Below are positions 5,434 through 40,195 of a DNA stretch of 64,000 nt, in pieces (the first letter of the stretch is position 1; each line of letters begins with the position of its first letter). The DNA is from Bradyrhizobium sp. CCGB12 (GTDB taxonomy: Bacteria; Pseudomonadota; Alphaproteobacteria; Rhizobiales; Xanthobacteraceae): NCBI RefSeq assembly GCF_024199845.1, contig NZ_JANADO010000001.1:5146001-5210000 (forward strand), given 5' to 3'. Under the pieces are notes generated by a model, which was given only the letters and a program-made list of their open reading frames with translations, was not told the DNA's origin and did not search any database. The position numbers and the translations under genes were made by a program.

Positions 5434-7133
5434 TCGGCCGCTTCCTTGAACTCGTCAGGGAAATATTTGATCACGGAGGACAACGGATTCGATGCCGCCT
5501 GTCCGAGCCCGCAGATCGAAGCATCGCGCATCGCCTGGCTCAATTCTTCCAGCAAGGCGCGGTTCCAGACCGGCTTCTGCATCAGCAGCGCCGCCTTTTG
5601 GGTTCCGACGCGGCACGGCGTACACTGGCCGCAGCTCTCGTCCTCGAAGAACTTCATCAGGTTCAGCGCCGCGGCGCGCACGCTGTCCTTTTGCGACAGG
5701 ATCACGATCGCGGCCGAGCCGATGAAGCAGCCATACTTCTCCAGCGTGCCGAAATCGAGCGGGATGTCGTCCATCGACGCCGGCAGGATGCCGCCGGATG
5801 CGCCGCCCGGCAGGTACGCGTAGAACTGATGGCCGTCGGCCATGCCGCCGCAATATTCGTCGATCAGCTCGCGTACGGTGATACCCGCGGGCGCCAGCTT
5901 CATGCCGGGGTTCTTCACGCGGCCCGAGACCGAGAAGCTGCGCAGGCCATGGCGCTCATGACGGCCATTGCCCTTCCACCAGTCGGCACCCTTCTCGACG
6001 ATGTCGCGCACCCACCACAGCGTCTCGATGTTGTTGATCAGCGTCGGCAGGCCGAACAGGCCGACCTGGAACGGATAAGGCGGCTTGTGCCTGGGCAGGC
6101 CGCGCTTGCCTTCGATGCTCTCCAGGAGCGAGGATTCCTCGCCGCAGATATAGGCGCCGGCGCCGCGGCGCATGTGCAGCGTCGGACCGCCCGGCGGCAG
6201 CTTTGCGATCTCGCGCTCGAGAATCTCGCGCGAAGCCGGATATTCGTCGCGCAGATAGATGTAGACGTCACTTGCCTGCACCACATGCGCGCCGATCAGC
6301 ATGCCCTCGATGAATCGGTGCGGATCGCTTTCGAGATAGACGCGGTCCTTGAACGTGCCGGGCTCGCCCTCGTCGCCGTTGATCGCCATCAGCCGCGGGC
6401 CGGGTTCGCCGAGCACCGCGCGCCATTTGCGCCCCGTCGGGAAGCCGGCGCCGCCGAGACCGCGCAGCGAGGCGTCGTCGAGCGCCTTCAAGAGATCGTC
6501 CTTCGAGAGTTCTCCCGAGCGGATGCGATTGAGCAGCTTGTAGCCGCCGCCGGCGACATAGGCGTCGTAGCCGATATAATCGGGCAGATGCGCGTGGGTG
6601 TCGCCGGCCTTCGCCGCCGCCATGACATTGGCAACCGTCGCGTGGTCGACGAAGTTGTGGCCGACCTCGGCAGCAGGCGCCGTATCGCAACGGCCGACAC
6701 AGGGCGCGCGCACGACGCGGATGCCCGGACCCGACGCGCTCTGCAAATCCTCGAGCAGCTTCTCGCCGCCGAGCATCGCGCAGGTCAGCGAATCGCAAAC
6801 GCGGATCGTCAGCGGTGCGATGTCGGGCTCGCCTTCCTTCACCACGTCGAAATGCGCATAGAAGGTCGCGGTCTCGAACACCTCGGCGAAGGCAAGCTTC
6901 ATCTCGTCGGCGAGCGCGGCCAGATGCGCGGCCGAGATCTGGTGATACTTGTCCTGGATCAGGTGCAGATATTCGATCAGGAGATCGCGCCGCCGCGGCC
7001 TGTCGCCAAGCAACAGCTCGATCTCATGCGCGGCGGTGGGATCGACCTGGCGGCCCTTGGGGGTCGCCTTGGCGCGCCGGCGTCCCTCACCGGGGTGCTC
7101 GAACGGGCGGACCTTGTGCACGTCGTCGCTCAT
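5430..7133 (-). CDS. fdsB: Formate dehydrogenase NADH-reducing subunit, NuoE-NuoF fusion
   Basis: A 567-residue protein joining two diaphorase parts usually encoded as separate FdsG and FdsB. Residues about 30-180 are the thioredoxin-like NuoE domain with a [2Fe-2S] motif (C113, C118, C145, C149). Residues about 190-567 are NuoF-like, with the GLGGAGFPTG nucleotide loop (225-234), the FMN motif GAGAYICGEESSL, and the ESCGQCTPCR cluster ligands near the C-terminus. It passes electrons from the molybdenum subunit to NAD. It overlaps fdsA by 4 bp. A GG-N10-GC sequence about 50 bp upstream may be a sigma-54 promoter. A NuoE-NuoF fusion is known elsewhere, but separate genes are more usual for Fds. 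Confidence 0.93.
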   Translation of the reverse strand: MSDDVHKVRPFEHPGEGRRRAKATPKGRQVDPTAAHEIELLLGDRPRRRDLLIEYLHLIQDKYHQISAAHLAALADEMKLAFAEVFETATFYAHFDVVKEGEPDIAPLTIRVCDSLTCAMLGGEKLLEDLQSASGPGIRVVRAPCVGRCDTAPAAEVGHNFVDHATVANVMAAAKAGDTHAHLPDYIGYDAYVAGGGYKLLNRIRSGELSKDDLLKALDDASLRGLGGAGFPTGRKWRAVLGEPGPRLMAINGDEGEPGTFKDRVYLESDPHRFIEGMLIGAHVVQASDVYIYLRDEYPASREILEREIAKLPPGGPTLHMRRGAGAYICGEESSLLESIEGKRGLPRHKPPYPFQVGLFGLPTLINNIETLWWVRDIVEKGADWWKGNGRHERHGLRSFSVSGRVKNPGMKLAPAGITVRELIDEYCGGMADGHQFYAYLPGGASGGILPASMDDIPLDFGTLEKYGCFIGSAAIVILSQKDSVRAAALNLMKFFEDESCGQCTPCRVGTQKAALLMQKPVWNRALLEELSQAMRDASICGLGQAASNPLSSVIKYFPDEFKEAAE

Positions 7134-7179
7134 CGATTCGTCTCGATCTCGTCTTTTAGAACAGCTCCAGTTCTAGCCT

Positions 7180-7198
7180 TTGGCATGCCAGATGCCAA
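7180..7198 (-). promoter_or_regulatory. Inverted repeat and possible sigma-54 promoter of the fds genes
   Basis: TTGGCAT-N5-ATGCCAA is a perfect 7-bp inverted repeat, 47-65 bp upstream of the fdsB start. Read on the minus strand, TGGCATCTGGCATGC also has the GG-N10-GC spacing of a sigma-54 promoter (7183-7197), but with one mismatch in each box. It could instead be a regulator operator, for example a LysR-type T-N11-A site. No paired GGACA-N3-TGTCC sites were found upstream, unlike at the carrier gene. Confidence 0.4.
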
Positions 7199-7417
7199 GT
7201 AAATTATCAAGCTTGCGGAAGCAGTTAAGCGCGACTCAAAGGCAAACTCCGGATCACTGCCGGACACTGCCTTGCGTTCGTCCAACGCGCCAATTGACAG
7301 AACGAAGCCTGAATTGGCCTGGAGATCAATAAAGCCTTCCTATGCTGCGATAGCGAAATCGTATCGCGTTCCCGCTCCGAGGCTACAGGTGCCCTTCCAT
7401 GCCCAAGCGCTGACCGG

Positions 7418-29598: not shown

Positions 29599-30111
29599 AG
29601 GCTGAATGCCGGGCCCTAATTATCGATTTCTACCTCATGTTGTTTGCGCGCGGGAAGAATAATCAATGGCAAGTGAGACGATTGCGCGAGGGGTGAGAAG
29701 ATAAAAAGTAGGCCCGAGCGCCCCGCAGGTTGGAAGGAACTTTCCGGTAACGAGCCGACATGTCCCGCCGAAGATTGGCCGTCTCACGAAACCGCTGCCT
29801 TTTGATTTCGAACTAGCGTCCCGACCGGTGCTATCTGTTGACCGACCGAACGCAATTTTTCCGTTAGAACTGTGAACAGCATCACAAATGCCAGATTGTC
29901 GTCAGTGTTATCTACTCTGCAACCAGTAGTGGACATTTAATCAGCTGTTGTTTTGCCGCACGAAGTCCGTCCGTCACGCGGACTATAGGCTTGCAAGGAC
30001 GTCCACAGCGACATCAGAACTCTTGTGACTTCGACTGCGGTCAGAGCCATGACCGTGCCAAGGAGCCCATGGAAGCGTAAGATCAGCAAACTGTTGCGGC
30101 GGGAGGCTGCA
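29599..30111. other. Intergenic region, divergent promoters likely
   Basis: This gap of 513 bp separates the divergent PIN-like gene and the large membrane protein gene. I see no protein-like frame. Its length and orientation suggest promoters for both, but no clear -35/-10 pair stands out. Confidence 0.4.
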
Positions 30112-31992
30112 ATGCATTCTTATCGGCTTTCAATAATTTTTTGTCTTCTTTTAGCGTTCAGTGGATTTGGAACGGACGCTCAATGCGGTCCCTTAGGTTG
30201 GCTTTCGAAGGGCTCCAAAGCGACCCGTAGTACAGCGACCGTTGTCAGTGGAGCAACCCTGCGTAGCTTGTCCAAGCGAGAAGCCATGCTTCTCGCGGGT
30301 GGCGCTGCCGTTTTCGTCGATGTGCAGGGTTCGCAAGTAATCGTAGAGGGAATTTCGAACGCGGCACGGGCGGTCGTCAATCTATCCGACGATGTGGTAC
30401 GGGCGGCCCGAGGGGTCATCGATGACATAGGCGGAATGCGCGTCAACCCCAAGCGTTATGCGATGACCCTCGAGACGGCCAACTTGCTAGGCAACAAGAT
30501 CGACGATCTCGCCAAGGACGGCCAAGTCTTTGTTGTCGAGAGTGGATTTGGCGCAGTTCCGCTGCGCATTCTTCCCCTCGGCAACGGTACATTGGGACGT
30601 TTCCGGGAAGTGAGCCCAGGGCTTATTGTGCGACTGGATCAGCAAATGACGGAAGAGGTTGTCGAGCTTCTAAAAAGTCCGGTGCAAACGGAGCGGATCC
30701 GTGTCGCCGCTTTCTTTGATGGCAGCGACGTCGACAGCATCAAACGGTTGGCCGATGCTGCTGGCGATAAACTGACCGAAGGCCGGCTTCTTGTCGATGC
30801 CAGTGGAAAGATCGCGCTGCCTTACCGCAGCGGTGACGTCGTCATAGCCATCGGACATGTCGAAGATGGCAGTTTTGTCGCCAGATCAGCCGGAGGAAAT
30901 GTCACTCAGCGAATTGCGATTGCCGAACTCGAAGCGGCCGCTGACGATGCCGGCGTAACGGTTCTGACTGCCGGTTGCAGTTGCGTTCGTGCTACCGGTC
31001 GCAGCGGCTTCGTAGATTCGGTCACAGACGTCGGCATTTCGGCTTCCCTATCAGAGGCGATGAATGCCAAATCATATGCGCAGATGCTCGGTGCATTTGG
31101 CCGCAGCGAATCTCCGTACGTGATCACCGGACCCGCGATGAATAAGCTCGCTGAGCATCGTGTGCTCGAACTTGAGCAACTGGTTCGCCACGAGAAAGCA
31201 GTCAACACGGGTGCCTTTTCGCTCCGACTAGTGAGGTTCATCGAGGCCGAGGGAATTGTGCAATATCTCATTCCGTGGTGGGGCTTCGGAATCGTTGCAT
31301 TCACATTCATGTTTCGTCGTAACAGGGCTGCGTACCTTAGACTGTTTCCGATTGTTCCGAATCCTCGACTGCATCCGACGTGGTCGATTGTGGTTAAATG
31401 TGGCCGGGAAATATTGTTTTTTGTCGTCGCCCCCCTAATTAGCGCGCTTGTTGCAATCAGCTTCCTATTTGGCGGTTGGTCGTTTCGCGATTTCCTTCAT
31501 GAACACTTATGGTCCGCATTCCTACGGCCTTTGCATTTTGTGATCTCTACGATCTTTTTTGTTGCGTTCATCGCGCTTCGCCTAGGGCTAATTGTGGCAT
31601 TCTGCCTTCCGGCAGTGCTTGCACTCGCGGAATTAGCTTTTTCGTTCGAGCGCTACCCAACTTATGTCTTAGTGGTCGCTAGCGTTCTGATGATTCCCTA
31701 TGCTGTTCTAGCTTGGCGGACGGTAAAGCACCTACCCGGCTGGCTGGTCGACTGGATTTCCGAAAAGAATTGGCCTGTTATCGGTCGGGTTGCCGTCATC
31801 GTCATTGCTGCGTTCCTCATCCCGGGCACCATAAGTGCTGTGACGTCACTTGGCGGTATGCTGTTTCAAATGACGCGCTTGCCGGCCCCAACGACGAAGT
31901 CGGCAACGGAAGCTGAAGCTCGGCTGGACTGCGAGAATCATCCTGCATCGGCGACCGTTTGCAAGGCGGTTCAAAGAGATGTGAGCGACTAG
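30112..31992 (+). CDS. Exported multi-helix membrane protein with possible caspase-like domain
   Basis: A 626-residue protein of unknown family. GGGAGG lies 5 bp before the ATG at 30112, and an N-terminal signal peptide follows (about 1-23). A soluble domain spans about residues 30-380. Within it, VVIAIGHVEDG (His249) and VTVLTAGCSCVRA (Cys289, Cys291) sit at the ends of hydrophobic strands, 40 residues apart. This is the arrangement of the His-Cys dyad in caspase/CHAT peptidases. About five to seven membrane helices follow (about 388-605). The stop TAG is immediately followed by the ATG of the next gene, so the two are co-translated. The peptidase idea is only pattern-based. Confidence 0.7.
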   Translation: MHSYRLSIIFCLLLAFSGFGTDAQCGPLGWLSKGSKATRSTATVVSGATLRSLSKREAMLLAGGAAVFVDVQGSQVIVEGISNAARAVVNLSDDVVRAARGVIDDIGGMRVNPKRYAMTLETANLLGNKIDDLAKDGQVFVVESGFGAVPLRILPLGNGTLGRFREVSPGLIVRLDQQMTEEVVELLKSPVQTERIRVAAFFDGSDVDSIKRLADAAGDKLTEGRLLVDASGKIALPYRSGDVVIAIGHVEDGSFVARSAGGNVTQRIAIAELEAAADDAGVTVLTAGCSCVRATGRSGFVDSVTDVGISASLSEAMNAKSYAQMLGAFGRSESPYVITGPAMNKLAEHRVLELEQLVRHEKAVNTGAFSLRLVRFIEAEGIVQYLIPWWGFGIVAFTFMFRRNRAAYLRLFPIVPNPRLHPTWSIVVKCGREILFFVVAPLISALVAISFLFGGWSFRDFLHEHLWSAFLRPLHFVISTIFFVAFIALRLGLIVAFCLPAVLALAELAFSFERYPTYVLVVASVLMIPYAVLAWRTVKHLPGWLVDWISEKNWPVIGRVAVIVIAAFLIPGTISAVTSLGGMLFQMTRLPAPTTKSATEAEARLDCENHPASATVCKAVQRDVSD

Positions 31993-32634
31993 ATGGAAAA
32001 TTTCGACGGCGCGGCGCATCTCTCCGTTCGCTCAATAGCCAATCTCGTGGCGAGCGAAACGCCAGCGGAGTTGGCTCGCTTGCGCACGCTCTTTCCAGAA
32101 CAGAAAGGGCTGTTTGACACCTCGTTTGTACTCGGCGACGAGACCTCCCAGTCTGAGCTGCACGACGGACGCCGGGCCGAGGCTTTGCGAGCTTTTGCAG
32201 AGGCTGGCATAGCCGCAGCCGAAAGCCGACTGTCCAAGGTCATCAAGGCGCTTGTGCTTCAGATAAAGCGGGCCCGGACGATAAAGCTCGTCAGCGCGAT
32301 CGCAGCGGCGATCTCTAGTGTTGGAGTGATCTCGGCGCTCGCTCTCGACAAGAGGCACGTGGCGATCGCGACGGCCGTGGTAAGCTTGGCTGCGTCTGTC
32401 GCTTCGATCATAGGAGAGCACCTTGAACAGCCGCTTACGGGGACACAAAAGGCCCTTAGCGACTTGCTTGTGTCCGCGCTCCGCGCCGAGTCGAAAGTCG
32501 CGGATATCAAAATCAGCCTGCTAACGGACGATCTGAGTCCGCCTGAGAACTTGCTGTCGTTGGTGAGACAAATGAACGAAGTAGCGGCTCAGATACGGGA
32601 AATTGTTGTCTTTGGCGGGATAAGCGAGCCCTAA
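31993..32634 (+). CDS. Two-helix membrane protein coupled to the upstream gene
   Basis: A 213-residue protein. The first 85 residues are charged and helical. Two membrane helices follow (IKLVSAIAAAISSVGVISAL and VAIATAVVSLAASVASIIG, about residues 96-140). A C-terminal helical tail of about 70 residues then follows. The layout recalls SLATT-type two-helix proteins linked to conflict systems, but I cannot identify the family. The ATG starts on the base after the stop codon of the 626-residue gene, with no gap, implying a fixed two-gene unit. Composition is less GC-rich than the core genes around it. Confidence 0.7.
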   Translation: MENFDGAAHLSVRSIANLVASETPAELARLRTLFPEQKGLFDTSFVLGDETSQSELHDGRRAEALRAFAEAGIAAAESRLSKVIKALVLQIKRARTIKLVSAIAAAISSVGVISALALDKRHVAIATAVVSLAASVASIIGEHLEQPLTGTQKALSDLLVSALRAESKVADIKISLLTDDLSPPENLLSLVRQMNEVAAQIREIVVFGGISEP

Positions 32635-33630: not shown

Positions 33631-33646
33631 TGTAGCATCCACTACA
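33631..33646. promoter_or_regulatory. TGTAG-N6-CTACA palindrome before the Fur-like pseudogene
   Basis: TGTAGCATCCACTACA lies 15 bp upstream of the ATG of the Fur/Irr-like remnant. It closely resembles the palindromes before the TonB receptor (34746-34761) and exbB (40180-40195). A shared metal regulator is inferred. Confidence 0.55.
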
Positions 33647-33660
33647 TCATAGGCCACCTC

Positions 33661-33919
33661 ATGTCGGATGACGAACTTCGCAGTATCTTGATCAATTTCG
33701 GCATCCGCCCGACCAGACACGTGTCTCTCTGATCGACTAGCTGCTGGGAAGCGAGAGGCGACCGGCCACCATCAAGTCCATCGTGAAGCATGTTCAGGAC
33801 AATCGTCGGCCGATCTCGCGGGCAACAGTCCTCAAAAGCTTGCGCGCGTTCGAACGATCCTGATTGATGAGCAGCTGCGTCGCAATGGGGTCCAGGGAAA
33901 CCTGTTTCACGCTTAACCA
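33661..33919 (+). pseudogene. Fur/Irr-family regulator, degenerate
   Basis: The frame from the ATG at 33661 reads MSDDELRSILINFGIRPTRH, the standard opening of a Fur/Irr protein (helix then G-[IL]-RPTR). Stops then interrupt it. In other frames follow LLGSERRP, then VQDNRRPISRATVLKSLRAFER, matching the region that is normally PIS-LATVYNTLRAFE, and IDEQLRRNGVQGNLFH. The metal-binding half is absent. At least two frameshifts or stops are needed, so it is not functional. A metal-type palindrome sits just upstream. End coordinate approximate. Confidence 0.7.
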
Positions 33920-33955
33920 GCTACCCGCTGGCGGCAGCAAAGAGGACGGCCGCTA

Positions 33956-34070
33956 GAGCATGATCCGGAAAGTGTGCAGCGGTTTCCACGGAACGCGTTT
34001 GCGCGGAGATCATGCTCAAATGAAAACCTAAAGCGCGATGACGATTCATCCTAATCTCGTCGCGCTTTAG
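33956..34070. repeat. Dispersed intergenic repeat with two nested inverted repeats
   Basis: GAGCATGATC (33956-33965) pairs with GATCATGCTC (34008-34017), and CTAAAGCGCGA (34028-34038) pairs with TCGCGCTTTAG (34060-34070). The GAGCATGATCCGGAAA opening is a widely scattered element in Bradyrhizobium and relatives. It lies just downstream of mntR and could end its transcript. Confidence 0.75.
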
Positions 34071-34127: not shown

Positions 34128-34622
34128 TTAACTCGCCTTCTTGATCCGCGATCCCTTGAGGAAATCCGAGAAGGCCTTGAGGGTCGCCTCCGAGACATGG
34201 TGTTCGATGCCTTCGGCATCGGCTTCGGCGGCCTCCCTTGGCACGCCGAGCGCGAGCAGCACTTCGAGAACAAGACGATGGCGCGCGCGCACGCGCCTTG
34301 CGAGCGCCTCGCCTTTCTCGGTCAGGAAAATGCCGCGGTAGGGGCGCGCCGTGGCGAGATCCTCGCGCTTCAGCCGCGCGATCGTGTTGATCGCGGTGGG
34401 ATGCGACACCCCGAGACGTCGCGCGATGTCGGTGGCGCGCGCCTCACCTGTCGATTCGATCAGATCGGCGATCAGCTCGACATAGTCCTCCAGGATGGCC
34501 GTCGACCGCGCGGTGCGGGCTTTGCCAAAACGCCGCGCCTGCGCCTGTTCGGTCGGGAGGGCATGGAGCGAGGCCTTGCGAGCAGGTGAAGCCTTCCGGC
34601 TCATGGGAGAATCCGCGTTCAT
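34128..34622 (-). CDS. mntR: Manganese-responsive regulator MntR (DtxR family)
   Basis: A 164-residue metal-dependent repressor. A basic N-terminal tail is followed by the winged helix (ATDIARRLGVSHPTAINTIARLKREDL) and the dimerisation/metal region. That region contains RHRLVLEVLLALGV and EGIEHHVSEATL, whose Glu and paired His are typical metal ligands of MntR. In other bacteria it represses Mn uptake, and in some it activates export. The start at 34622 (alternative 34604) has no strong ribosome-binding site. It is divergent from a TonB-dependent receptor gene, with a 176-bp gap containing the palindrome TGTAGC-N4-GCTACA. Confidence 0.9.
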   Translation of the reverse strand: MNADSPMSRKASPARKASLHALPTEQAQARRFGKARTARSTAILEDYVELIADLIESTGEARATDIARRLGVSHPTAINTIARLKREDLATARPYRGIFLTEKGEALARRVRARHRLVLEVLLALGVPREAAEADAEGIEHHVSEATLKAFSDFLKGSRIKKAS

Positions 34623-34718: not shown

Positions 34719-34761
34719 TTGACATCGTAGCCAATGCCTCTCAATTGTAGCCTTAGCTACA
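34719..34761 (+). promoter_or_regulatory. Promoter and metal-regulator operator of the TonB receptor gene
   Basis: TTGACA at 34719-34724 is a consensus -35 box. The perfect palindrome TGTAGC-CTTA-GCTACA at 34746-34761 falls where the -10 box and start site should be, a repressing position. Its core TAGC-N4-GCTA matches the core of the enterobacterial MntR box (ATAGC-N4-GCTAT). A weaker partial copy, CGTAGC-N4-GCCTCT, lies at 34726-34741. MntR next door is the likely binder; this is inference. Confidence 0.65.
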
Positions 34762-34798: not shown

Positions 34799-37700
34799 AT
34801 GCGTGTTTGCGTTGCTCGTCGGGCCCTATTGGGCACGACGTCGGTTGCCTTGATCTGCTTGCACGGGATCGCGGCAGCCCAGCAGGCCGCCCCGCCCTCG
34901 ACCGACAGTCCGTCCGGGTCGCCCGCAACCCAGTCCCAGCCGCCCGCGACGCCGGATGCATCGAACGCGCGGCCATCCGCAGCTCCCGCGCCAGTCCCCA
35001 CGACGTCCGATTCCCCATCCCCCGCCGCTGCGACGCAGCCATCAGCGCCCGCGCCATCATCGCCGGCACAGGCCAACAGTCCGGCGGAAATCGAAATTCC
35101 CCAGGTGACGGTCGAGGGCCGGCAGCCCAGGGCGACGCGCCGCACCACCCGCAACGAGCCGACGGGCCGACCCACCACGTCGCGCGCCGCACCGGCGCCA
35201 GTCGCGCCATCCGCGGTCACATCCGCCACCCCGCCCTTCGCACCGTCAGCGCTGACCGGCGACCAGATTCAGGCAAGCACCAGCACGAGCTTCGGAAATC
35301 TGTTCTTCACCGCCCCCGGGGCAACCTCGGCCGGCCTGTCGACCCAGTCATCACGCCCTGTTCTCCGCGGCCTGTCTGACGCCAAGGTCCGAATCCAGGA
35401 AAACGGCATCGGCAGTGTCGACGTCTCCGACATCGCGCAGGATCATGGCGTGCCGCTTGATCCGCTGGCGCTGCAGAAAACCGAGGTGTTTCGCGGACCG
35501 GGCGCGCTGCGCTTCGGCACGCAGGCGGTCGGCGGCATCGTCGACGTCACCAACAACCGGATTCCGACCGCCGCGCCGGTCGGCGGAATGGCCGCGGAGC
35601 TGCGGTCGGCCGTCACCTCGGTCGACAACGGTTGGGAGAGCGGCCTGCTGCTGGATGCCGGCGCCGGTAACGTGGCCGTGCACGCCGACGTCTATGGCCG
35701 CGGTGGCCAGGACTATCGAATCCCGAGCTACCCGTATCTCGTGCCGCCCAGCCCGGCGCCCGCTTTCAACGGGCGGCAGCCGAACTCGGCGATGCAGAGC
35801 GCGGGCGCGGCGATCGGCGGCTCCTATCTGTTCGACGGCGGCTATGTCGGCCTGTCGATCTCCCGCTTCACCAGCGATTATCACGTCCCCGGCATCGCGT
35901 CGGCCGAGAGCCAACAGCACAACGATCTCGAGCAGACCAAGATCATGAGCAAGGGCGAATACCGCCCCGATGCCGTCGCGTTCGCCGCCGTACGCTACTG
36001 GCTCGGCTACTCCGACTATCGGCACGACGAGGTCGACGTCAACCAGACCGCTTTCGGGACTTTCCAGACCATCGGCGCGACGTTCAAGAACCGCGCGACC
36101 GAAGGCAAGGTCGAGGTGGAGAGCCAGCCGGTGGTGACGCCGCTCGGCGCGCTGACCAGCATCGTCGGCGTGCAGGGCGCCTACCAGCGCCTCGACACGC
36201 TCGGCCAGGCCATCCTGCTCCCGGCGCAGACCACGACCGCCGCCGGATATTTCTTCGAGGAAATGAGACACACCGATACGCTGCGAACCCAGTTCGCCGG
36301 GCGTATCGAATCCGTCGACGTCGCCGGCACCTCATTCGGATTCCCGTCGAACAATCTGCCGCCGCCGGCCCTGCCGACGAGCTCGGCGTCCCGCTCCGAC
36401 TTCCTGCCGACCAGCCTCAGCGTCGGCGTGATCAAGGATCTTCCGTCGTATCTTCAGGCGAGCTTGACCTTGCAGCGCATCCAGCGTGCGCCGCGCGCGC
36501 TCGAACTGTTCGCGAGCGGTCCGGACGATTCGGAGAAGACCTTCAAGATCGGCAATCCCGACCTGACGCTCGAGACCGCCAACACCGCGGAAATCGGCCT
36601 GAAGCGGACCCGCGGCGAGGTCAGGTTCGATGCGAACCTGTACTACACCCGCTACGACAAGTTCATCTTCGGCCAGTCGACCGGCAATTTCTGCGGCGCG
36701 ACGTTTGCGACCTGCGCCGCGGGCGGCACCGGCGACTACATCCAGGTCGCCTACTCCCAGCGCGACGCGATCTTCCGCGGCGGCGAATTGTCCTGGCAAT
36801 GGGATGTCTCCCCCCTCTCCGGCGGCATCTTCGGACTGGAAGGCCAGTTCGACATGGTGCGCGCCACCTTCACCGACGGCACCAACGTGCCGCGCATTCC
36901 GCCGATGCGGCTCGGTGGCGGCGTCTATTGGCGCAGCGACGAATGGTACGCGCGGCTGAACCTGCTGCACGCCTTCAGGCAGAACGATTTTGCACAATTC
37001 GACACGCCAACCGACGGCTACAACCTGCTCAAGTTCCAGCTCGAGCACCGGCAGCGCTGGAAGGATTCGCCCTGGGGCGCGGTGGAAGTGGCGACCGGGC
37101 TGATCGGCGACAATCTGCTCAACGCCGACATCCGCAACTCCGTGCAGTTCCACAAGGACGAGATCCTGCAGCCGGGCCGCACCGTCAAGCTGTTCCTCAA
37201 TGTCAAATACGGCGCCGACGCGCCGGCGAACACGAGAATTGGCGCCGCACGCGCGCAGGACACGCCATCGATCTTCCGCAAGGCGCCCCCGACCGCCTCA
37301 TGGGACTGGAGTGGCTTCTACGCCGGCGGCAACGCCGGATATTCATGGGGCGCCGCCAAGACCTATGCGGGCTTCATCGACAATGCGAGCCAGATCCCGC
37401 TCGACGGCGACCGCCCGAGTGCCGGGCTCGACCATGCGGGGCTCGGCGTTCAGGCCGGTTACAACTGGACGATGGGACGGATGGTGGCGGGCATCGAAGG
37501 CGATTTCGTCTACGCGGGCCAGCGCGGCCAGTCGTCGACCACGTGCCCGACAGCGGCCTGCAACGCGGCGCTGCTTCCGCTTGATGCCCCGATGACGGCC
37601 AACATGAACTATCGGCTCGACTGGATGGCCTCATTGCGCGGCCGCGTCGGCGTTGCGGTCACGCCCAACAGCCTCGCCTACGTCACGGCCGGCGTGCCGT

Positions 37701-38005
37701 TCGGGACCGTGAGCTCGTCCGGAACGGTGTCGGGCTTCACCACCACCGGTGCTGCGACGACGACGCCCTTCAATGTCGACACGTTCCGCTTCGGCTGGGC
37801 AGTCGGCGCGGGACTGGAAAGCCGGCTGTTCGGCAACTGGACCGGACGGATCGAGTATCTGCACGCCGATCTCGGCTCATTCCGTGCCGCGCCGAACATG
37901 GCCGCCGGGATGGCGACGTCATTCGATTCCGACGCGCAGGTCAGAACCGATGCGATCCGCCTCGGCGTAAACTATAAGTTCGGCGCCGCGATCGCCGGAG
38001 AGTAA
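34799..38005 (+). CDS. TonB-dependent receptor fused to a second small outer-membrane barrel
   Basis: A 1068-residue outer-membrane protein. Signal peptide about 1-28; Pro/Ala/Ser-rich linker about 30-150 with a TonB-box-like IEIPQVTVEG (about 98-107). The plug (about 150-260) holds RPVLRGLSDAKVRIQENG, DHGVPLDPLALQKTEV and FRGPGALRFGTQAVGG, closest in my reading to ZnuD-type divalent-metal receptors. The 22-strand barrel runs to about 815. Residues 835-1068 then form another complete barrel of the Omp25/RopB type (WDWSGFYAGGNAGYSWG, GIEGDFVYAG, GRIEYLHADLG, RLGVNYKFG). Both parts are in one frame with no stop. GGAGG precedes the ATG by 7 bp. mntR is divergent, and tonB-exbD-exbB face it. Metal import is inferred. 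Confidence 0.9.
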   Translation: MRVCVARRALLGTTSVALICLHGIAAAQQAAPPSTDSPSGSPATQSQPPATPDASNARPSAAPAPVPTTSDSPSPAAATQPSAPAPSSPAQANSPAEIEIPQVTVEGRQPRATRRTTRNEPTGRPTTSRAAPAPVAPSAVTSATPPFAPSALTGDQIQASTSTSFGNLFFTAPGATSAGLSTQSSRPVLRGLSDAKVRIQENGIGSVDVSDIAQDHGVPLDPLALQKTEVFRGPGALRFGTQAVGGIVDVTNNRIPTAAPVGGMAAELRSAVTSVDNGWESGLLLDAGAGNVAVHADVYGRGGQDYRIPSYPYLVPPSPAPAFNGRQPNSAMQSAGAAIGGSYLFDGGYVGLSISRFTSDYHVPGIASAESQQHNDLEQTKIMSKGEYRPDAVAFAAVRYWLGYSDYRHDEVDVNQTAFGTFQTIGATFKNRATEGKVEVESQPVVTPLGALTSIVGVQGAYQRLDTLGQAILLPAQTTTAAGYFFEEMRHTDTLRTQFAGRIESVDVAGTSFGFPSNNLPPPALPTSSASRSDFLPTSLSVGVIKDLPSYLQASLTLQRIQRAPRALELFASGPDDSEKTFKIGNPDLTLETANTAEIGLKRTRGEVRFDANLYYTRYDKFIFGQSTGNFCGATFATCAAGGTGDYIQVAYSQRDAIFRGGELSWQWDVSPLSGGIFGLEGQFDMVRATFTDGTNVPRIPPMRLGGGVYWRSDEWYARLNLLHAFRQNDFAQFDTPTDGYNLLKFQLEHRQRWKDSPWGAVEVATGLIGDNLLNADIRNSVQFHKDEILQPGRTVKLFLNVKYGADAPANTRIGAARAQDTPSIFRKAPPTASWDWSGFYAGGNAGYSWGAAKTYAGFIDNASQIPLDGDRPSAGLDHAGLGVQAGYNWTMGRMVAGIEGDFVYAGQRGQSSTTCPTAACNAALLPLDAPMTANMNYRLDWMASLRGRVGVAVTPNSLAYVTAGVPFGTVSSSGTVSGFTTTGAATTTPFNVDTFRFGWAVGAGLESRLFGNWTGRIEYLHADLGSFRAAPNMAAGMATSFDSDAQVRTDAIRLGVNYKFGAAIAGE

Positions 38006-38092: not shown

Positions 38093-38848
38093 TTACTTGA
38101 CGGTAAACCGGATCGGCAGCCTGACCGCCACGACGTCGCCCGCAAAAGTGTCGGGCGGCGCAGGAAACGGCTGCGCGCGCTTCAGCAGCGCGATGGCTTC
38201 GCCGTCGAGCGCATCGGAGCCTGAACTCTGGGTGACGCGCGCATCGCCGACGATGCCGTTGCGGTCCAGCGTGAATCGAACCTGGGTGATCCCTTGCTCG
38301 CGCCGTGATCGCGCGGCTTCCGGATAGCGCTTGTTGCGTTCGACCAGGGCCAGTATCTGCGAACGCCAGGTCGCAACGGCCTGCGAATTCTTCTGATCGG
38401 GCTGTCCCTGTGTCGGTGCGGCCGCCACGGGAGCGATGCGTTCCGACACCGCCGCCGGTGGCGCTGACGTCGCCGACGCGGCTTGTTGCTCCGCCATGGC
38501 GTCGGGCTGCACGTTCTTTTGCACATCGACGACGGCGTCCGGGTTGGCGGCCTGCGGAAGCTCCGGTGTATCGTTGGGTTGTGCGACCTCAGGCTTCGCC
38601 TCGGGGCGCGCCTCGGACATCACCTGCTCCGGCCCGGGCGGAATGTCGGTCGGCGTGGTCGATGGCGCGGCGGGCAACGGCGCAAGGTCGACCACCACGG
38701 CGCCCGTCGGCTCGGCCGGCTCGAGATCGTCGGGCCGCTGCCACGTCGCGAGCGAAGCAGCAAGTGCACTGTACATGGTCAGGACGGCGAGGCTGCTGTA
38801 CGTCCAGCGCTTCAGATCCGACGCATCTTCGGCGGCGAGACGCTTCAT
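38093..38848 (-). CDS. tonB: TonB energy-transducing protein
   Basis: A 251-residue inner-membrane-anchored protein. A single N-terminal helix (about residues 17-34) is followed by a Pro/Ala/Glu-rich periplasmic spacer (about 40-160) and a TonB C-terminal domain. That domain contains YPEAARSRREQGITQVRFTLDRNG, VTQSSGSDALDGEAI and a final LPIRFTVK strand. It links ExbBD to outer-membrane receptors. Its start overlaps the exbD stop by 4 bp (ATGA). It converges on the fused receptor gene, so it is probably dedicated to that receptor. Confidence 0.93.
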   Translation of the reverse strand: MKRLAAEDASDLKRWTYSSLAVLTMYSALAASLATWQRPDDLEPAEPTGAVVVDLAPLPAAPSTTPTDIPPGPEQVMSEARPEAKPEVAQPNDTPELPQAANPDAVVDVQKNVQPDAMAEQQAASATSAPPAAVSERIAPVAAAPTQGQPDQKNSQAVATWRSQILALVERNKRYPEAARSRREQGITQVRFTLDRNGIVGDARVTQSSGSDALDGEAIALLKRAQPFPAPPDTFAGDVVAVRLPIRFTVK

Positions 38849-39270
38849 GGTTCGGACGTCTGCTCCAGTCCGACCAGCGCCACCTTCAGATAGCCGGCCG
38901 CCCGCAGGCCGTTCATGACACGCATGATCTCGCCGTAGGGAACCATCTTGTCGCCGCGAAGAAAGATCCGAGCGTCCTTCTGGCCGTTGGTGGCGACATC
39001 GAGCGCACCGGCCAGCGCGGCACGGCTCACGGTCTCGTCTCCGACCGACAAGGTGAGGTCCGGCCTGACCGTGAGATAGACCGGCTTGTCCGGACGTGGA
39101 TGCGGCTGAGCATTCGACGCCGGCAGGTCGACGGCGATATCGACGGTCGCAAGCGGGGCGGCAACCATGAAGATGATGAGAAGCACGAGGATGACATCGA
39201 TGAACGGCGTCACGTTGATGTCATTGACCTCGGCGAGATCGCCGCCGGCCTGGTTGAGATTGATCGCCAT
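38845..39270 (-). CDS. exbD: Biopolymer transport protein ExbD
   Basis: A 141-residue protein. There is a short cytoplasmic N-terminus, then one helix carrying the essential Asp in NVTPFIDVILVLLIIFMVAAP, and a periplasmic domain ending with MRVMNGLRAAGYLKVALVGLE. With ExbB it uses the proton gradient to drive TonB. The start at 39270 was chosen by homology; the frame extends upstream into exbB in non-homologous Arg/Ser-rich sequence. It lies 4 bp after exbB and overlaps tonB by 4 bp. Confidence 0.93.
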   Translation of the reverse strand: MAINLNQAGGDLAEVNDINVTPFIDVILVLLIIFMVAAPLATVDIAVDLPASNAQPHPRPDKPVYLTVRPDLTLSVGDETVSRAALAGALDVATNGQKDARIFLRGDKMVPYGEIMRVMNGLRAAGYLKVALVGLEQTSEP

Positions 39271-39274
39271 CAAC

Positions 39275-40132
39275 TTACTCTGCCGCTGCGAGCCGTAGTC
39301 GCTTGGGCGCGATCGTACCGCCATCGAGATCCCGGCCCGCAAGGCGCGCGATTTCCGACGAGCTCTCGCCGAGTAGCGCGCGATACGCACCGATCTGGCG
39401 CGCAAACAGGTTGTAGATGACCACCGCCGGAATGGCGGCGACAAGCCCGAGCGCGGTCGCCAGCAGCGCCTCTGCGATGCCGGGCGCAACGACCGCGAGG
39501 TTGGTGGTCTGGGATTTCGAGATGCCGATGAAGCTGTTCATGATGCCCCAGACCGTACCGAACAGGCCCACAAAGGGACCGGTTGCTCCGATGGTCGCCA
39601 GCACGCCCGTGCCGAACGCGATGCGCCGGCTTGCAGCCGCCTCGATCTGCTGCAGGCGGGAAGCGATCCTCGTCTTGATGCCTTCCCTGTCCATCCGATC
39701 GGTGCTCAGATCAAGTTCGGCGACAGTCCCCTCGAGCAACCGTGCCACGGCTCCCTCGCGGACGGCCTGCACCGCCTCGTCCAAGCTCCGCGCTGCCGCC
39801 AGTTCGCGGAGGGCCCGCCGTACATTGCGGCGCGCAGTGAACAGTTCAACCGTCTTGGACAGGCAGACCGTGCAGGTGACCAACGTGGCGAAGGCAAGCC
39901 CGACCATGACGGCCTTCACGATGATGTCGGCCTGGATGAACATGCCCCAGGGGCTGAGATCGCGAGGGAGTGTCGCGGCAGCTACCACCGTGCTTTCGGA
40001 ACCCTGTTGCGCGAGCGCAGGCCCCATCACTCCGATGAGGCAGAACATGACGGCTGCCGGGACGCAGAGGACGACATATACCGCCCGATCGGTCGACCCG
40101 AAGCGACGGCGCGGAGGTGTACGAATCTGCAT
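39275..40132 (-). CDS. exbB: Biopolymer transport protein ExbB
   Basis: A 285-residue inner-membrane protein of the MotA/TolQ/ExbB family. A signal-like hydrophobic N-terminus (about 18-42) and three main helices are visible. These include [18 protein letters not shown] and the conserved pair [20 protein letters not shown] and [20 protein letters not shown]. It is the first gene of an exbB-exbD-tonB operon. A palindrome of the type found before the receptor gene lies 48-63 bp upstream of its start, pointing to shared metal control. Confidence 0.94.
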
Positions 40133-40179: not shown

Positions 40180-40195
40180 TGTAGCATCACCTACG
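40180..40195. promoter_or_regulatory. Metal-regulator-type operator upstream of exbB
   Basis: TGTAGC-ATCA-CCTACG differs at two bases in the right arm from the perfect TGTAGC-N4-GCTACA at 34746-34761. Position 48-63 bp upstream of the exbB start fits an operator over the promoter. The rest of the 40133-40534 gap holds no convincing gene. Confidence 0.55.

Follow-up and report, generated by a model that had tools for sequence, protein, structure and literature searches.

Introduction

Outer-membrane proteins with several complete barrels in one chain are known, and Solan and colleagues reportedly described in PNAS in 2021 how such multibarrel proteins, made of 8-strand units, come about by lineage-specific fusion and amplification. 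MnoP, the outer-membrane Mn2+ channel of Bradyrhizobium, has 675 amino acids and combines an OMP_b-brl barrel with OprB, and the same source, in its accessible sections, also describes proteins with two or three barrels from Methylosinus and Methylocystis (PMC4827864). TonB-dependent receptors for manganese have likewise been described or proposed already, going by the accessible portions of the reports on MnoT of Burkholderia, a TonB-dependent receptor tied to Mn2+ (PMC9334652, PMC8602904), and on a TonB-dependent receptor (TBDR)-pTFP pair of Stenotrophomonas, which has an MntR box, lies close to mntR-mntH and carries a CQNC motif in its plug (PMC13217887). For ZnuD of Neisseria (PDB 4rdr, 4rdt, 4rvw) the zinc ligands given in the accessible part of its description are Asp99, His100, Glu340 and His499 (PMC4557270). 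Here we analyze a gene at positions 34799..38005 (plus strand) of a 64,000-nucleotide stretch of Bradyrhizobium sp. CCGB12 (contig NZ_JANADO010000001.1; hereafter the window), which encodes a 1068-residue TonB-dependent receptor that continues in the same chain into a second, small OmpA-type barrel, and which is probably an MntR-repressed, TonB-dependent outer-membrane receptor for Mn2+.

ZnuD is the closest characterized relative by sequence and fold, with Asp99, His100 and Glu340 kept in the fused receptor, while the differences are an Asp (Asp576) in place of His499, the second barrel behind the receptor, the MntR-type operators and the neighboring mntR; the score against the ZnuD model NF038289 is 220 bits, below its cut-off of 950. 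With MnoP the fused receptor shares two outer-membrane barrels per chain, one of them OMP_b-brl, and probably a role in Mn2+ uptake. MnoP, however, is without a TonB receptor, has its small barrel at the N-terminus and pairs it with OprB, a profile that finds no match in the fused receptor (Pfam). This genome also has a MnoP-like gene (L004:214-2235, minus strand, also within L075) that encodes 673 amino acids with OMP_b-brl followed by OprB, and a palindrome, TGCGAATTACTCGCA, lies upstream of it. Several complete barrels per chain are common to all multibarrel outer-membrane proteins, whereas here a TonB receptor is followed by one to four small barrels within a metal-regulated cassette, an architecture absent from the fused-protein examples in section 17 of PMC4827864. 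For neither MnoT nor the Stenotrophomonas pair is a second barrel mentioned in the accessible text; compared with the Stenotrophomonas receptor, the CQNC motif is absent here (the chain is Cys-free from residue 21 to 631) and a tonB-exbD-exbB operon adjoins. A literature search covering titles and the beginnings of abstracts, with few subscription papers among them, found no report of a TonB receptor with small barrels under MntR. Fused outer-membrane barrels are already known, and it is this architecture with this regulation that appears to be new.

A Receptor and a Second Barrel in One Chain

The chain begins with a helix that we presume to be the signal peptide and with a Pro/Ala-rich N-terminus, followed by a candidate TonB box at residues 98-106 (IEIPQVTVE, 35090..35116), read off the sequence by its motif. 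The plug (residues 147-247, 35237..35539, Pfam PF07715) and the large C-terminal barrel (residues 251-804, 35549..37210, Pfam and structure prediction) that make up a TonB-dependent receptor are both present. After a linker of about 30 residues (805-838, 37211..37312), presumed periplasmic and mostly low in predicted local distance difference test score (pLDDT), the chain goes on into an OmpA-like barrel (residues 839-1060, 37313..37978; structure prediction and Pfam) with eight predicted strands and a score of 65.9 bits against PF13505 (OMP_b-brl, cut-off 28.7). A cysteine pair, Cys916-Cys921 (CPTAAC, 37544..37561), sits between strands 3 and 4 of the small barrel, presumably in an outer loop.

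The original prediction described two complete barrels in one polypeptide with no stop, frameshift or start between them, and both statements hold. The predicted fold contains the large barrel and, as the C-terminal part, a complete 8-strand barrel, which makes the protein a multibarrel chain by sequence and by structure prediction, and the open reading frame (34799-38005) is unbroken, with no stop and no usable start codon near the joint, which recurs in 9 other loci. The accompanying view of the fusion as unusual stands in part: the TonB-receptor variant with its MntR-type regulation appears to be new, but fused barrels as such are known, MnoP among them, and fusion is the rule within the clade of this receptor, where a search for the same arrangement finds it in all but one of the best 120 homologues out of 627 (119 of 120).

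The final strand of the receptor, GRTVKLFLNVKY, is internal to the fused chain, and the C-terminal strand comes from the small barrel (LGVNYKF). This last receptor strand would normally end the protein, as in this genome's unfused paralogue, which terminates right after GVRAFANFKF. Outer-membrane barrels have both of their ends in the periplasm, so a short periplasmic linker would suffice to tie two of them together.

Relatives with up to Four Small Barrels

The relatives considered here are the query and the 120 best homologues (121 chains), from a search that covered lengths up to 1.75 times that of the query and hence at most four small barrels. Splitting the chains with an iterated small-barrel profile gives one small barrel in 57, two in 19, three in 39, four in 5 and none in 1, and Pfam independently finds three OMP_b-brl stretches in P0052, four in P0024 and two in P0090. 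That a single receptor can be followed by as many as four small barrels is, in our view, the largest new fact of this analysis; the chains with two to four come mostly from metagenome sources and an NCBI metagenome-assembled genome entry. A CxxxxC pair is a signature of the fused barrels (231/232) and is found in none of the nine other barrel pieces of this genome, four of which are partial. When 119 genomes of the family were surveyed (E up to 1e-30), 82 matches in 65 genomes were obtained, with fused genes confirmed in G000, G021, G163 and G153 and no chain of two to four barrels among the 82, the longest open frame having 1082 amino acids; genomic context was seen for 20 of these matches (19 and the window itself), and the other 62 frames have at most 891 amino acids.

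The small barrels were placed in a tree of 48 barrels. Of these, 39 are fused barrels taken from 24 of the 121 proteins, and the other 9 are pieces that this genome encodes in further genes, among them the MnoP-like gene. All 39 fused barrels are united with a support of 100/99. Within them the first-position barrels form one group (100/100), as do the second-position barrels (100/98), the third-of-four barrels group together with one second-of-three barrel (100/98), and the last-position barrels group at 99/94, including the single barrels of the His-type proteins P0111, P0116 and P0118 (His-type and Asp-type being named for the fourth ligand of the metal site described below). The single barrels of four other His-type proteins (P0079, P0083, P0098, P0107) join the Asp-type barrels. 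The tree does not resolve how the main groups connect and so gives no settled order of duplication. These groupings by chain position indicate that one barrel would have been captured by the receptor and then duplicated within the chain, a course of events that they fit, and they argue against assembly artefacts. A small barrel borrowed from MnoP is unsupported: the MnoP-like barrel falls outside the fused group, to which the barrels of L006 and L005 lie closer (forks 97/94 and 87/64), with several long branches among them and an unsure deep placement. The receptor tree, built from 44 domains, unites 25 fused receptors at 100/100, and nested among them is a single barrel-less member, P0121 (731 amino acids, with a different C-terminus), which is probably a truncation.

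The Metal-Binding Site

The equivalents of the ZnuD ligands were counted along the profile alignment to 4rdr, in which the chain index runs 14 above the 4rdr ligand numbering. Asp215-His216 (35441..35446) correspond to Asp99-His100, Glu411 (36029..36031) corresponds to Glu340, and Asp576 (36524..36526) stands where ZnuD has His499. With three of the four ligands kept and ZnuD as the nearest characterized relative, the earlier comparison of the plug with ZnuD-type metal receptors is supported.

The first three ligands are invariant, both in the 121 relatives (121/121) and in a paralogue set made of the unfused paralogue and the 120 best of 2123 hits (121/121). At the fourth place, 36 of the 121 relatives have Asp and 85 have His, while His is found throughout the paralogue set (121/121). 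The Asp-type relatives comprise 35 chains with one small barrel and 1 with none, and the His-type ones comprise 22 with one, 19 with two, 39 with three and 5 with four, which rules out the simple notion that fusion goes with Asp, His being kept in 22 one-barrel chains and in all 63 chains of two to four barrels. In the receptor tree, the Asp-type receptors of the fused family (9 of the 36, P0121 included) form one 100/100 clade together with L060 and L061. An oxygen-richer site generally suits Mn2+ better than Zn2+, and Asp576 in place of a His would, by this reasoning from sequence, favor manganese over zinc. The unfused ZnuD-type paralogue of this genome (L074 7766-10150), which has all four zinc ligands and no small barrel, shares 92% identity with one of its listed hits, called Bll2460 in the source.

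MntR-Type Boxes and the Linked Motor Operon

The promoter of the fused receptor carries an MntR-type box, TGTAGCCTTAGCTACA (34746..34761), which has no second exact copy in the genome (9.43 Mb), and a degenerate box with 2 mismatches, TGTAGCATCACCTACG, lies upstream of exbB (40180..40195). We compared ten fused loci, all of them Asp-type (the window, L015-L019, L021 and L060-L062). All ten receptor promoters have the box, each time after a TTGAC element; it is exact in 7 of them and has one mismatch in the other 3, and of 2000 mononucleotide shuffles per promoter no more than 2 score as well. Upstream of exbB, a box with up to 2 mismatches occurs in 9/9 fused loci with a linked exbB (the window, L015, L017, L018, L019, L021, L060, L061, L062); at this stringency about one match per 64 kb is expected by chance, and 5 are found in the window.

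Among 60 genomes of the genus, six contain the exact box. Two of these boxes belong to receptor loci (G000 and G021), and one, in another Bradyrhizobium (G026, locus L024), lies between divergent mntR and mntH genes whose products both exceed their NCBIfam cut-offs (MntH with 524 bits against 430). The remaining three (L025, L026, L027) have no mntR or receptor inside their 3 kb and are probably due to chance. The same box between mntR and mntH in G026 lends independent support to the identity of TGTAGC-N4-GCTACA as an MntR operator, to which we infer that MntR would bind.

The genes on either side agree with such control. Divergent from the receptor lies mntR (34128..34604, minus strand, 158 amino acids; NF008273 MntR 203 bits against a cut-off of 153, run on 34128-34586), for which the start at 34604 is our assignment from the sequence. 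On the other side, also on the minus strand, follow tonB (38093..38848, TonB_C), exbD (38845..39270, TIGR02803 over cut-off, with a likely start at MAINLN) and exbB (39275..40132, TIGR02797 over cut-off). The receptor is adjoined by mntR in 10/10 fused loci and by tonB-exbD-exbB in 9/10, and mntR is found in 0/16 loci of unfused homologues in the stretches fetched. An exbB gene is near 3/3 unfused Asp-type receptors and 0/13 His-type ones, two of the His-type loci having a lone tonB-like hit; the contig of L064 ends close to its receptor, so its neighbors are seen in part. The whole mntR-receptor-tonB-exbD-exbB cassette is also borne by a conjugative plasmid of Bradyrhizobium sp. ISRA443 (L021 1-22379), with an exact box, TGTAGCATACGCTACA, upstream of exbB; siderophore-type genes are about 8-11 kb away on this plasmid, and a second TonB receptor is close by.

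Proposed Function and Alternative Readings

Taken as an MntR-repressed manganese receptor, the locus could work as follows. When cytoplasmic Mn2+ is low, MntR would leave the boxes at 34746 and 40180, and the receptor and its dedicated ExbB-ExbD-TonB motor would be made together. Mn2+ would be bound at the plug/barrel site formed by Asp215, His216, Glu411 and Asp576 and be released to the periplasm when TonB works on the plug, from where an Nramp importer encoded elsewhere would bring it into the cell. The small barrel would be inserted beside the receptor, tethered by the periplasmic linker, and we think that it is a membrane-embedded accessory, with outer loops and their Cys pair by the mouth of the receptor (for capture, shielding or clustering), rather than a second pore. 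The original prediction had offered manganese or zinc as the metal of a self-contained uptake system. Metal uptake with manganese favored over zinc agrees with mntR in all ten fused loci, the MntR-type box in both promoters and the Asp at the place of His499, and on these we infer the specificity.

Several observations weigh against this reading. The claim of a self-contained system fails, since no inner-membrane importer is found in the receptor locus; the genome has three Nramp genes, all outside it, and the roughly 4 kb around each of the three hold no box with fewer than 3 mismatches. The strict pattern, present once in the genome (at 34746), is outnumbered by its reversed control (2 copies), as is the looser TGTAG-N6-CTACA (3 places, 2 of them at the receptor locus, against 12 for the reversed control), and the control was the commoner pattern in the 60 genomes of the genus too, so the case for an operator is one of position and conservation and not of genome-wide enrichment. 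The linkage of fused genes to mntR was seen in Asp-type loci alone, and in one of these (L016) tonB-exbBD is not found within 8 kb. The apical plug loop that carries Asp215-His216 has a pLDDT below 50, which leaves the geometry of the site unconfirmed. Finally, three unfused ZnuD-like receptors (L068, L071, L077) also have Asp at the His499 place, with a separate origin in the receptor tree and without mntR, so that Asp alone does not imply manganese, and the simple rule that it does is weakened. These three may be receptors for iron or manganese that a Fur-type regulator controls. Each comes with exbB-exbD-tonB and a TTGCGAATAATTCGCA-like, Fur-like palindrome in its promoter stretch, and L068 also has a gene for a PepSY_TM protein.

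The fact that these unfused Asp-type relatives lie behind Fur-like palindromes, and that the closest characterized relative by sequence and fold is a zinc receptor (the copper receptor OprC ties with ZnuD by Z in one structure comparison), would fit a receptor for another metal, zinc or iron, that MntR merely co-regulates within a wider metal response. We consider this unlikely, as mntR is a constant neighbor and an MntR-type box precedes both the receptor gene and exbB, and for zinc the same genome offers a better candidate in the unfused paralogue with its full Asp-His-Glu-His set. It is also rather improbable that the substrate is a chelate of manganese or another metal, from plants, fungi or bacteria, instead of the free ion. 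TonB receptors mostly take chelates and the ISRA443 copy has siderophore-type genes in its vicinity, but most of the buried site at which ZnuD binds the free ion is conserved here.

Eight-strand OmpA-type barrels are usually without an open pore, which makes it seem quite doubtful that Mn2+ passes through the small barrel itself, with the receptor part only gathering the metal. The model for such a division of labor is MnoP, which also pairs OMP_b-brl with a second barrel in one chain (PMC4827864) and has a counterpart in this genome; its partner barrel, however, is an OprB porin, and the MnoP-like barrel is not sister to the fused barrels in the barrel tree, though its branch is long. A channel role is thus possible for the small barrel and less likely than that of an accessory. 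That two genes were joined by a sequencing or assembly error can be dismissed, given the identical in-frame joint in nine other loci, one of them a plasmid record, the lack of an own start codon near the joint, and the fused homologues and receptor tree described above.

Returning to the MntR-repressed manganese receptor, the family can be read more broadly as one of outer-membrane polyproteins, and we would put the chances of this wider picture at about even. Each member would consist of one TonB-driven metal receptor and one to four OmpA-type barrels, the β-barrel assembly machinery (BAM) would assemble up to five barrels per polypeptide by means of internal end-of-barrel signals, and in one branch the change from His to Asp together with MntR control would have made a manganese importer, equipped with a motor of its own, out of a zinc-type receptor. 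The series of one, two, three and four small barrels is a natural ladder for studying how BAM handles several barrels per chain, because a free C-terminal signal is available on the last barrel alone. It also raises the question of what reason a cell has to tether small barrels to a receptor at all. Few TonB-dependent receptors for manganese have been described (MnoT and the Stenotrophomonas pair, as far as the accessible accounts go). The present locus combines a motor operon with a defined candidate operator, and its receptor contrasts at one residue, Asp against His, with an unfused paralogue in the same genome, which makes the choice of metal in ZnuD-like receptors testable.

Other Observations at the Locus

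The window also contains two adjacent frames of 655 and 213 amino acids (30025-32634) with no Pfam match at E 0.001. In the locus of G153, a frame that by eye resembles an insertion-sequence transposase (L061 6083-7258) lies between the receptor and tonB, the cassette being otherwise kept. A third MntR-type box in the window, TGTAGCATCCACTACA (33631..33646), precedes a small Fur-like frame, beginning at 33661, that has decayed by several stops (box and frame together span 33631-33957), and at the corresponding place L017 has an open frame of 98 amino acids with a FUR domain (6970-7263). A truncated Fur-like protein under MntR, if that is what was once encoded here, would be a curious extra regulator.

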